From a bacterium (lineage in GTDB: Bacteria > Bacteroidota > Rhodothermia > Balneolales > M1805), in contig SBGQ01000117.1 of NCBI GenBank assembly GCA_006226965.1, positions 1-44,995 of the forward strand: DNA of 44,995 bases. The letters run 5' to 3'. The notes under the pieces were generated by a model. The model was given only the letters and a program-made list of their open reading frames with translations. It had not been told where the DNA came from and ran no database searches. Below are positions 19,410-23,127 of this stretch, piece after piece. Both the position numbers and the translations under genes were made by a program. The first letter of the stretch is position 1; each line of letters starts with the position of its first letter.

Positions 19410-20018
19410 TTAGAACAATCTGGAACCGTTGGGTTGAGTAATGAATCTAAATGTGTACACACGGGCATCAGGACGTGTATCTCTGTTTATGAAAGCCTCT
19501 GTTGTGGTATCAGGATTACCTCTGTAATAACTGATAATTTGCATTTTTGTATAGGTTCCGTCTGTATTTTTGAATACCAGAATCTTACCTGGAATCGGCA
19601 AAATTGCATGTTGAGGCCCTGTTTCAGCACTTCCGGTATAATTATACCAGCCCCCGTTTCCTGTTATTGCTTTTGCTTCTGCGGTATCTGATACATAACC
19701 GGATTGAGGCGCTTCATCATATTCATCAAACAAACCGTCAACGATTTGTGCTGCTGCCGTTCCAAGACCGCTTACGCCGGAATTAACAATAATTGTTGCT
19801 CCTTTAATGCCAATATCCCAATTTGTTGTCGCTGAATCTGTATTAGCTACGATGTCGCCGGTCTTAAAATCATAAAAGACATAGCTAGTTCCGGTTGCAT
19901 CTAAATCAGTTACCGTTGTGGCTTCTAAAGGTTCTGAGTCAGTATTCGTAGATGAATCCTCACATCCGTTAAACAATGCAATGGAAAACAAGCTTAATAA
20001 GGCTACTTTAATCTTCAT
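19410..20018 (-). CDS. hmuY: HmuY family heme-binding lipoprotein
   Basis: A 202-residue HmuY-family hemophore. The N-terminus is a lipoprotein signal with the modified cysteine at C19 (LFNGC), followed by an acidic EDSS stretch that may favour surface exposure in Bacteroidota. Family features are YDFKTG, a WDIGIKG strand, an NSGVSGLG turn and a terminal YTFRFITQ strand. The family binds heme at the cell surface and passes it to HmuR. The ATG at 20018 was chosen because it opens a proper signal peptide; the longer ORF would overlap hmuR. It lies 16 bases after hmuR. Confidence 0.87.
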   Translation of the reverse strand: MKIKVALLSLFSIALFNGCEDSSTNTDSEPLEATTVTDLDATGTSYVFYDFKTGDIVANTDSATTNWDIGIKGATIIVNSGVSGLGTAAAQIVDGLFDEYDEAPQSGYVSDTAEAKAITGNGGWYNYTGSAETGPQHAILPIPGKILVFKNTDGTYTKMQIISYYRGNPDTTTEAFINRDTRPDARVYTFRFITQPNGSRLF

Positions 20019-20034
20019 TTTAATGTGACTTATT

Positions 20035-22338
20035 TTATTTAAAGTTATAGTTGAGTTGTATGTAGTAAAGTCTCCCGGGTAAAAAAGACAATTGATTTGG
20101 ACGTGTGAAATCAAAAAGATTATCCACACCCAACTGCACACGTAATTTCTTAATCGGATAATTTGCCAAACTGATATTGGTTAAGGTGTACCCTTTTTCG
20201 TATTCATTATCCTGATCTAGAATCTGATTATTATTTTTATCCATAAAACCATATCTGCCTCTTAAAATGAGTCTGATACTGGTTTCCCAATGTTTATCGG
20301 GCGATGTTGCAAATAAACGTAACGTTCCGCTGTGACGCGATCTGTTAAATAAACCGCCGTAATCAGCTAATTGAACTCGTTCGTCTATATTAGTAGATGA
20401 ATTTCTTCTGTAAACGGCACCGCTGTTTATCTGATCAATTACCTGCTGATCCATAGCTTGCAAATAGGAATAACCGCTCATCAATGAAACACCGGGAATT
20501 ACATCCCAATGTAGTTCAGCTTCAATGCCTTGTGTATAAATCTCGTTTAAGTTGAAATAGGTATAAACGGATTGATTATTCGTTTTAATGGCTATCGGCT
20601 GAGAATCAATTAAGTTATTTATCGTATTTCTGAAAACATTAACCTTAGTTCTTAATCTGTTTTTATAGGAATAATCCAATCCCACATTTATAGAAAATGA
20701 GCGCTCTGCTTGAATGGCCTGCAAGGTTGAAGCATCAATGAGTACTAAGGCTAATTCGCCTCTCTCCTGCAATTCCTGAACGCTCTCTTCAACAGTACTC
20801 GTACCAAAAACACTATAACCGGATGTCGGATTCGTAAAATTCAAAAACAGTTGGCGAAATTCCGGAGCTTTAAACCCGTTACCGATCGACATTTTTATGT
20901 GAAGATTTTCCTTAAGCTCATAGCGTAAGCCGAACTTTGGACTAAGTTCACCGGAATATTCACTGTGATAATCTCCCCTTAACCCCGCCGTTATATTAAC
21001 GTTCGAAGTTATATCCCAGTCAAGTTGCGTAAATCCAAAGTAAGACTTAAAAACAGGTTTTGATACATATCTATCGGCTTCAAGGGTTTCATAAGTATAT
21101 CCTAAGCCGGAAGTTGTACGCGCTTGGGAATTCCAAAATGCATCCCATTGTAACTCTGAGCGATGCATTCGCTGATTAAACGGACTCTCACTGTACACAC
21201 TGCCATTATCAGCATAATTGATTTGGGAAGTATTACCAAACCATGTTGAATTGTGAATAAACTCCATTTTTTGAGTGGAATTAAGATTAATTTTGAGAGT
21301 CGGGATTAAACTATAATCGTATTGTTTAGCTCGTTCATCCAATAAACGAATTGCATCATTTTCAATAATCTGTCCTTTATTTTCTTGATTTTCATGATAT
21401 AAACGAGCTCTTAGACCCAATTCAACACGATTCGTTAAAGTAGCTGAACCTTTATACATAGCTGTATAATTCAAAAACTCAGGTACAGTGTTGCCGACAA
21501 TGTTTGGGTTTAACTTATACCCGTTTGATGTATTACCATTTAAAAACAAAGACTGGGATAGTTTATCATTTTGATAAGCTGTTTCTAAACTATAGTCCTG
21601 CGAACCATAACTTCCAATTCTCGAACTTACTACAGATGTAAAACCTGTTTTGGGTTTTTCAGTGATGATATTAATTACACCTCCTAAGGCGTCACTCCCC
21701 CACAAAGCTGAGCTTGGGCCTTTTACAATTTCAATTTGTTTGATGTTGCCAACTGTTATTCTTGTTAAATCTAAGGTGCCGGAAGTGCGACCAATTACAG
21801 GCTGGCCATCAATCAGAATTAATGAATAATCGGCATCCATGCCCTGCATTTGTACACCCGTTCCATGATCTGATGTGAGAGTAATTCCCACTTGTTCCAT
21901 CAAAATATCATTTAAACGTAAGGATCCTGATTGTGCTAACTCTTTTTTACTTACAACAGAAACCGGCTGAGCGACTGACTCCATGTCTTTACTTGTTCTT
22001 GTTGCAGTTACAACTACATCTGAATTAGACCAAATTCTGTTTGATTTTAGCTCAATTGCACCTAGTTCAATAATGGGTTTTGTTATAGAAAGGGATTGTT
22101 CGTGGCGTTCATATCCTAAATGGGTTATGATGATTTTACCTTCATTTTGACTGCTTTTTAGTGTAAATGAACCTGTCGAATCCGTTATTACAATGGATTG
22201 ATGCCATTTCACATGAGCGCCTTTTAAATAGCCTTCATCTCCTAATACTTTCCCTTTTATGATAACATCTTTTGCGTAAAGCATCTCTAGGCTGCTTAGT
22301 ACAAAGATCAGGGTTAAATGTAAAAGTTTAATAAGCAT
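20035..22338 (-). CDS. hmuR: TonB-dependent heme receptor (HmuR-like)
   Basis: A 767-residue outer-membrane receptor. A signal peptide is followed by a carboxypeptidase-like regulatory domain (about residues 25-105), the TonB plug (motifs VVVTATRTS, ILIDGQPV, and a KGPSSALWGSDALGGVINI stretch) and a 22-strand barrel ending in an aromatic/hydrophobic strand (YIQLNYNFK). FKAPEF at about residue 490 resembles the FRAP box of heme/hemoglobin receptors. It is the first gene of the hmu operon, with hmuY 16 bases downstream. The ATG at 22338 gives a normal signal peptide; the longer frame adds 22 unlikely residues. Confidence 0.9.
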   Translation of the reverse strand: MLIKLLHLTLIFVLSSLEMLYAKDVIIKGKVLGDEGYLKGAHVKWHQSIVITDSTGSFTLKSSQNEGKIIITHLGYERHEQSLSITKPIIELGAIELKSNRIWSNSDVVVTATRTSKDMESVAQPVSVVSKKELAQSGSLRLNDILMEQVGITLTSDHGTGVQMQGMDADYSLILIDGQPVIGRTSGTLDLTRITVGNIKQIEIVKGPSSALWGSDALGGVINIITEKPKTGFTSVVSSRIGSYGSQDYSLETAYQNDKLSQSLFLNGNTSNGYKLNPNIVGNTVPEFLNYTAMYKGSATLTNRVELGLRARLYHENQENKGQIIENDAIRLLDERAKQYDYSLIPTLKINLNSTQKMEFIHNSTWFGNTSQINYADNGSVYSESPFNQRMHRSELQWDAFWNSQARTTSGLGYTYETLEADRYVSKPVFKSYFGFTQLDWDITSNVNITAGLRGDYHSEYSGELSPKFGLRYELKENLHIKMSIGNGFKAPEFRQLFLNFTNPTSGYSVFGTSTVEESVQELQERGELALVLIDASTLQAIQAERSFSINVGLDYSYKNRLRTKVNVFRNTINNLIDSQPIAIKTNNQSVYTYFNLNEIYTQGIEAELHWDVIPGVSLMSGYSYLQAMDQQVIDQINSGAVYRRNSSTNIDERVQLADYGGLFNRSRHSGTLRLFATSPDKHWETSIRLILRGRYGFMDKNNNQILDQDNEYEKGYTLTNISLANYPIKKLRVQLGVDNLFDFTRPNQLSFLPGRLYYIQLNYNFK

Positions 22339-22377: not shown

Positions 22378-22437
22378 TTTATTTAGATTTATTCCACATA
22401 ACAATAGTCGAAGCTCATTTTTCTCTACTAAAAGAGA

Positions 22438-22468
22438 TTTGACAACCCACTAGATGAGAATAGACTTT
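22438..22468 (+). promoter_or_regulatory. Candidate promoter for the transposase-derived gene
   Basis: TTTG (22438-22441), 19 bases, then TAGACTTT (22461-22468), a 6/8 match to TAnnTTTG at standard Bacteroidota spacing. Transcription would start near 22475, leaving a leader of about 25 bases to the ATG at 22498. It lies inside the left inverted repeat of the presumed relic element. Confidence 0.45.
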
Positions 22469-22497
22469 TATTGCTGGTTATATATTTAGTAAAATCA

Positions 22498-23070
22498 ATG
22501 ATTAACAAATACGTTTCTCGTTCCAAAATTTCAGAGGCTAAATTCAGACAGTTAGTTTCGTACTTTGCACTGAATTTAAGTGCTACACAAATTGCACAAC
22601 TGTCCGGTCTAAACAGAACTACTGTAAACCGTTTATTAGATGGAATAAGACGAGTTATAGAAGATAAATTTATTAGTGAAAATACCTTGTTTTATATACC
22701 AGAAAACATAACGGTTAGCGAGAAACTTCCATGTGGCATTATTCTTATTCATGAACAAATTCACTTATGTGTAAACAAGAATATTTACACTGAATGTAAC
22801 GTAATATTAGAATCAACGCCGTTTTTGCCGCAGTTTTTATATGATACTAGCACATCGGGGTTCATTAAACTGGATAATGCCATTTCAGAAACCGAAAACG
22901 GTCTCCTTTTCTCTTTCATTCAGTCGGTAAAGCACCATCAACAAATCTGTTATGGAATACCTGAAAAAAAAGTAATTCGTCACCTGTGTGAGCTCATTTT
23001 TCGCTTTAATTACAGAAATCAAAATAAGTATGATATTCTGTTAAAATGGATACGTCATAATCCGATTTAG
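22498..23070 (+). CDS. IS1595-type transposase-derived HTH protein lacking the DDE core
   Basis: A 190-residue protein. Residues 5-55 match the N-terminal helix-turn-helix region of IS1595/ISXO2-type transposases (RSKISEAKFRQLVSYFALN, then LSGLNRTTVNRLL). The last 25 residues match the family's C-terminal signature (FRFNYRNQNKYDILLKWIRHNP). The centre is shortened, and I cannot find the family's DE-x-(F/Y)-G catalytic block or the later acidic residues in conserved context. The frame is nevertheless open throughout. It is divergent from hmuR with 159 bases between start codons. This suggests a domesticated DNA-binding protein, possibly controlling the heme operon; a decaying insertion sequence is the alternative. 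ATG at 22498 is preferred over a TTG at 22471. Confidence 0.7.
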   Translation: MINKYVSRSKISEAKFRQLVSYFALNLSATQIAQLSGLNRTTVNRLLDGIRRVIEDKFISENTLFYIPENITVSEKLPCGIILIHEQIHLCVNKNIYTECNVILESTPFLPQFLYDTSTSGFIKLDNAISETENGLLFSFIQSVKHHQQICYGIPEKKVIRHLCELIFRFNYRNQNKYDILLKWIRHNPI

Positions 23071-23097
23071 ACATCTAGAGGGCTTCCGCACAATAAA

Positions 23098-23127
23098 AAA
23101 GCCCCGCAAAAAATTTTACGAGGCTTT
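23098..23127 (-). terminator. Terminator after sdhB
   Basis: Stem AAAGCC-C-CG / CG-A-GGCTTT around a 12-base AT-rich loop, followed on the minus strand by a run of T. It lies between the sdhB stop and the convergent transposase-derived gene and may stop both transcripts. Confidence 0.7.

Follow-up and report, generated by a model that had tools for sequence, protein, structure and literature searches.

A catalytically dead IS1595-type transposase gene linked to the heme-uptake genes hmuR-hmuY in Balneolales

The window, the whole 44,995-nucleotide stretch of contig SBGQ01000117.1 that was analysed, contains the gene of a former IS1595-family transposase lying divergent to hmuR. The protein descends from an IS1595 transposase and has a dead catalytic centre. 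Together with its orthologues in the order Balneolales it forms a group of genes that occur in single copy, are under purifying selection, are linked to hmuR and inherited jointly with it, and retain the ends of the insertion sequence (IS) at their flanks. The best explanation, which we hold to be reasonably probable, is that this immobilised transposase has become an autoregulated DNA-binding protein that tunes the neighbouring hmuR-hmuY genes.

The window gene and its protein

The features of the locus are collected in Table 1. A preliminary description, made from the sequence of the window, had proposed an intact frame of 190 codons starting 159 bases from the start of the divergent hmuR, and both statements hold. 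The window genome has one copy of the gene. Pfam confirms the identities of the two neighbouring genes, with a TonB receptor match for hmuR and a HmuY match (PF14064) for hmuY. Downstream of hmuR-hmuY follow a DUF981-like gene, MotA/ExbB and DUF2149 genes and then a CobN chelatase gene, and the run from hmuR to CobN is a heme-uptake operon. On the far side of the dead gene lies sdhB, which is convergent to it. The inverted repeat between the two, from its sequence, is a probable two-way terminator shared by both genes.

Table 1. Features of the dead transposase locus, with positions numbered along the window.
Feature	Position	Strand	Remarks
hmuY, heme-binding lipoprotein (PF14064)	19413..20018	-	
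hmuR, TonB-dependent heme receptor	20035..22338	-	Divergent neighbour of the dead gene; start ATG at 22338
Iron-box-like palindrome TTTAGAATAAATCTTAA	22340..22356	.	Beside hmuR start; 1 mismatch to TTTAGAnnnnnTCTAAA
Second, more degenerate iron-box half TTTAGATTTATTCCACA	22382..22398	.	
Left IS-end remnant CCCACTAGATG	22446..22456	+	-52 to -42 from ATG; relatives there have GG[GT]nCWTGACTA
Catalytically dead IS1595-type transposase gene	22498..23070	+	Intact ORF from ATG at 22498 to TAG at 23070; 190 aa
Parts of the dead gene			HTH, residues 1-60; degenerate middle, 61-130; C-terminal helical domain, 131-190
Right IS-end remnant, reverse complement CCCTCTAGATG	23072..23082	-	Just past stop; relatives have TAGTCAWG overlapping stop
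Inverted repeat AAAGCCCCG...CGAGGCTTT	23098..23127	.	Arms 23098-23106 and 23119-23127; between dead gene and sdhB

The protein begins with NKYVSRSKISEAKFR and ends with FRFNYRNQNKYDILLKWIRHNPI. Pfam finds a helix–turn–helix (HTH) in it and nothing else, and its match to the IS1595 profile NF033547 is marginal (E = 0.012) and lies in the HTH part. Its assignment to the IS1595 family, made in the preliminary description, is nevertheless borne out by the orthologous proteins described below, 10 of 11 of which match NF033547 at E <= 0.01 (best 2e-11), all under the curated cut-off. In common with the IS1595 transposases (NF033547; PF12762, DDE_Tnp_IS1595) the dead genes encode an HTH containing the motifs NKYxxRSKISEAKFR and NRNTVNRYL and a C-terminus of the form FWGxAKxRLxKFxG...HLKECEFRFN...LLKIIRxxPL, and are flanked by terminal inverted repeats. 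They differ from these transposases in that the catalytic middle is shortened and fast-evolving. The window gene differs further in its lack of catalytic acidic residues, its single copy and its fixed site beside hmuR.

Aligning the window protein with active IS1595 transposases places a serine, a gap and a phenylalanine at the D1, D2 and E columns, respectively, so that all three catalytic acidic residues are missing, in agreement with the earlier remark that no DDE block could be recognised. D1 (VDES region) and D2 (SDGW region) are absent from all 11 orthologues. The glutamate is retained in three of them, is replaced in most of the others by D, K or S, and is gone in the window. The dead gene does not therefore possess the D-D-E triad of an active IS.

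For the window protein AlphaFold2 predicts an HTH formed from helices at residues 13-24, 29-36 and 40-60 (pLDDT > 90 for residues 11-60). The C-terminus is modelled confidently as three helices, and the middle is left unresolved. The Fodinibius roseus orthologue gives a better fold, with a mean pLDDT of 86. The conserved HTH, predicted with pLDDT above 90, would provide the protein with a DNA-binding domain. Fold searches of the PDB returned weak HTH matches only, with no full-length relative, and a PDB sequence search returned nothing convincing.

Orthologues, linkage to hmuR-hmuY and selection

Searching 129 genomes of the order with a profile gives 11 intact short-form genes of 190-204 aa, one per genome, and a frameshifted copy in genome G116 that is the sole pseudogene among the 12. 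No further short-form orthologue was found in a class-wide search (245 genomes), and a sample of the phylum (395 genomes) likewise contained no further short form and only longer relatives, including a Chlorobaculum group. In the tree the 11 orthologues form a single clade in 96% of bootstraps, and the window copy has diverged furthest (branch 2.06). Their genomes belong to no fewer than four genera and three families of the order. The proposal that a transposase was domesticated "in this lineage" is therefore upheld as regards domestication and is too narrow as regards the lineage.

In 10 of the 11 genomes, hmuR-hmuY lies divergent to the intact gene. With one copy per genome, and the same locus in 10/11, the genes do not show the mobility of an active IS. 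In the eleventh genome, that of Fodinibius sediminis (G067), the gene is intact, hmuR has been lost, and a TonB receptor gene and a PepSY-type gene are found in its place. The neighbour on the far side is of about eight kinds across the 11 genomes and thus varies while hmuR stays, so that the pairing is not merely conserved gene order. Single-domain hmuY is present in 14 genomes, 10 of which have the dead gene, and conversely the dead gene is accompanied by single-domain hmuY in 10 of 11 cases (Fisher p = 4e-11, uncorrected for relatedness). The remaining four genomes with hmuR-hmuY (G055, G060, G112 and G117, the last two being short contigs) have no dead gene, which therefore seems dispensable for the operon. 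G116, with the sole decayed copy, has no hmuY. Finally, the hmuR tree contains the same groupings as that of the dead gene. G004, which belongs to another family, is nested among the same partners in both, and this suggests that hmuR and the dead gene travel together.

The closest pair of genes, those of G062 and G063, gives a dN/dS of 0.12 for the whole gene, with 0.02 for the HTH, 0.37 for the old catalytic middle and 0.04 for the C-terminal helices. Across the eleven intact frames synonymous divergence is saturated. Comparing the window gene with its distant relatives gives pN/pS values of 0.23-0.36 in the HTH and 0.65-0.82 in the C-terminus, which is less constrained. A conserved position, divergent to hmuR in 10/11, is thus found together with catalytic loss and purifying selection, the dN/dS values being those of G062/G063 and not of the window species. 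The preliminary description had stated that scattered, truncated homologues unlinked to hmuR, or a dN/dS near 1, would point to a dying insertion sequence. The opposite is observed on both counts, with one clade, intact frames and hmuR linkage in 10/11, and with dN/dS of 0.02-0.12 for the whole gene and its constrained parts. Clade, frames, linkage and dN/dS together lend strong support to its term "domesticated transposase".

Remnants of the element ends and the iron box at hmuR

In the relatives an inverted repeat surrounds the gene, for example GGGCCTTGACTAAAA ... TTTTAGTCAAGGCCC, which in F. halophilus (G061) is perfect over 15 bp. Relative to the start codon its core, CWTGACTA, lies at -47/-48. 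A reversed copy lies over the stop codon, and in seven genomes a third one stands some 40 bp beyond it. Some copies are one or two bases off. This positional sharing of the core was reached by no shuffle. Active IS1595 elements from other phyla with an NRNTVNRYL-like recognition helix have ends of the form GGGTCWTGACTAGAACAG, i.e. GGGTCATGACTAGAACAG or GGGTCTTGACTAGAACAG, and active elements with other recognition helices have other ends. An end matrix was built solely from the ends of active elements and scored across windows of each locus. The left-end region falls in the best 2% of these in 10/10 relatives, lying near -57 relative to the NKY codon in nine of them, and the right end in the best 0.3% in 10/10, a match that is partly fixed by the terminal codons of the gene. 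Unrestricted searching for inverted repeats near the gene reaches significance in only a few genomes; it is the shared position and the active-element matrix that make the case for retained ends.

The same matrix does not detect the ends of the window locus, which are shown only by their match to each other. They agree at 10/11 bases, as good a match being reached in 4/2000 shuffles, and agree with the ends of any other genome at 8/11 bases at most. The terminal inverted repeats of an IS are thus recognisable in 10 relatives, and diverged but matching in the window. Both window ends have CTAGATG as their core, and the window protein is the sole one with a recognition helix differing at positions 41 and 46 (N41T, Y46L). 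That both ends and the helix have changed together would fit a protein–DNA pair that still works, albeit in a single case. The left-end site is inside the intergenic region shared with hmuR, but it is situated beside the dead gene and does not overlap the hmuR start region. As the candidate operators flank the dead gene, clear of that region, the sequence does not require control of hmuR.

Of the paired sites found by a search across the order, six lie at the dead gene and ten are located elsewhere. A block, TAGTCATG...TTTAGTCATGACTA, is common to five genomes belonging to a single genus of the order (L210-L214). It lies at ~1501-1555 in each, upstream of a gene for a lipoprotein-like product containing CxxCH, and has a CATGACTA core as in IS1595 ends and no adjoining dead transposase gene.

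Palindromes of the type TTTAGAnnnnnTCTAAA are found at most of the hmuR promoters examined in the order. This palindrome was considered as the operator of the dead protein and rejected, since genomes that lack the dead gene also have it at hmuR, and it occurs elsewhere in the genomes. It is probably a DtxR-type iron box of a general iron regulator, and a DtxR-family protein is encoded a few kb from hmuR in one genome that lacks the dead gene. Because the palindrome is present without the dead gene, it is assigned to general iron control. The ends of the element itself are the best candidate operators. Genome-wide counts of TTTAGAnnnnnTCTAAA show no excess over a reversed-pattern control in most genomes, so that a regulon cannot be defined from them.

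Proposed function and relation to known systems

It is proposed that several genera of the order descend from an ancestor in which an IS1595-family IS inserted beside hmuR, and that loss of the D-D-E residues of its transposase rendered the element immobile, whereas selection preserved the DNA-binding HTH and the helical C-terminal domain. Most probably, the protein continues to bind the former terminal inverted repeats, with CWTGACTA as the core in the relatives and CTAGATG in the window. One of these, the left end, is in the promoter region of the gene itself, some 48 bp before the start codon, where binding would result in autoregulation. Occupancy of this site, within the shared intergenic region, could also tune hmuR-hmuY on top of the general iron repressor. 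Possibly the protein also brings the two ends together to form a loop, much as a transposase does prior to cutting. A role as heme or iron regulator is plausible from the position of the gene and its joint inheritance with hmuR.

A lost catalytic centre with IS ends still visible, the long branch of the window copy and one pseudogene among 12 would also be expected of a dying IS, that is, an old immobile copy in neutral decay whose frame is open by chance. This explanation is most unlikely given 11 intact frames over saturated synonymous divergence, dN/dS of 0.02-0.04 in the HTH and C-terminus, and the constancy of partner and position. Alternatively, the protein could act as a dominant-negative guardian that prevents related active IS1595 elements from transposing by binding their ends, an idea in keeping with the end core shared with active elements that have the same recognition helix and with the active or fragmentary IS1595 copies also carried by G066 and G067. 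It is nonetheless improbable, as the window genome and most others contain no second IS1595 copy, the active element of G067 has a different end (GGGTCTTATGAAGT), and the linkage to hmuR would be left unexplained.

The protein could also be an autoregulator with no heme role, selected for some other genomic target and carried with hmuR on one transferable locus. Such an arrangement would suit candidate operators that flank just the dead gene, an hmuR promoter with a general iron box of its own, the survival of the gene without hmuR in G067, and the unrelated genes that adjoin other dead IS1595 genes, such as the nitronate-monooxygenase-like gene in Neisseriales. It would not readily account for the retention of hmuR as partner in 10/11 while the other neighbour changes, nor for the finding of the sole decayed copy in a genome without hmuY, and we regard it as rather unlikely. 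Autoregulation combined with tuning of hmuR-hmuY is accordingly the preferred reading.

A scan for recurrence, with one genome per species, revealed further IS1595-like genes whose catalytic residues are damaged, in Chlorobaculum, Neisseriales and Desulfobacterales. These fall outside the Balneolales clade in the tree and are apparently independent of it. The Chlorobaculum genes retain the first Asp and in most the second is absent; each genome has one strong match (L131, L135, L141, L144, L226-L230), with the left end at -55 to -59. In four Neisseriales genomes (L136, L140, L148, L149) the gene is divergent from the nitronate-monooxygenase-like gene and has CTAGACTAGAATAG at the left-end place. 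In Desulfobacterales the surroundings of the dead gene are shared by two genomes (L137, L186), with a response-regulator gene downstream of it. The left-end site persists in 5/5 Chlorobaculum cases, in 4/4 Desulfobacterales cases (one weak) and, weakly, in 4/5 Neisseriales cases, and the right end is mostly missing in all three groups. The left-end test with the active-end matrix fails for one Neisseriales gene and for both Sulfurovum relatives. It is possible, and is suggested here tentatively, that IS1595 transposases repeatedly became bacterial transcription factors whose catalytic centre decayed and that kept the HTH, the C-terminus and the left end as operator, the Balneolales protein looping both ends to control heme uptake with no cutting. 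Separately, the related genome G056 contains many active-length IS1595 copies (L008-L022), mostly at contig ends, and these probably break the assembly of that genome.

The bacterial TldR proteins are nuclease-dead transcription factors, and as such resemble the dead gene in that the enzyme of a mobile element has lost its nuclease and taken on a regulatory role (PMC13418256). They are RNA-guided and descend from TnpB, whereas the dead gene encodes a DDE transposase with an HTH and is flanked by the ends of its own element. Ner/SfsB and antitoxin-derived regulators are likewise DNA-binding proteins of mobile elements recruited by the cell (PMC8987985). These were, however, regulators already within the mobile element, while here the transposase itself is recruited; the review mentions neither 'DDE' nor 'IS1595'. 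In FHY3/FAR1, from MULE transposases, a transposase has also become a host transcription factor, but these proteins are eukaryotic, derive from another transposase family and are uncoupled from a neighbouring operon (PMC13306707). PgFur of Porphyromonas gingivalis is an iron regulator linked to HmuY in the literature; it belongs to the Fur family and is unrelated to the dead transposase, next to which a general iron box is present besides (PMC6613475). Within the library of papers that was searched, none was found on an IS1595-derived regulator or on a DDE transposase turned bacterial regulator.

This family displays the ancestor, represented by active elements, the intermediate, in which both ends still flank a dead gene, and likely parallel cases, and the recognition helix of mobile relatives allows the operator to be predicted. 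The switch of a selfish element to the service of its host is an old question, which thereby becomes directly testable with one protein and 200 bp of DNA.
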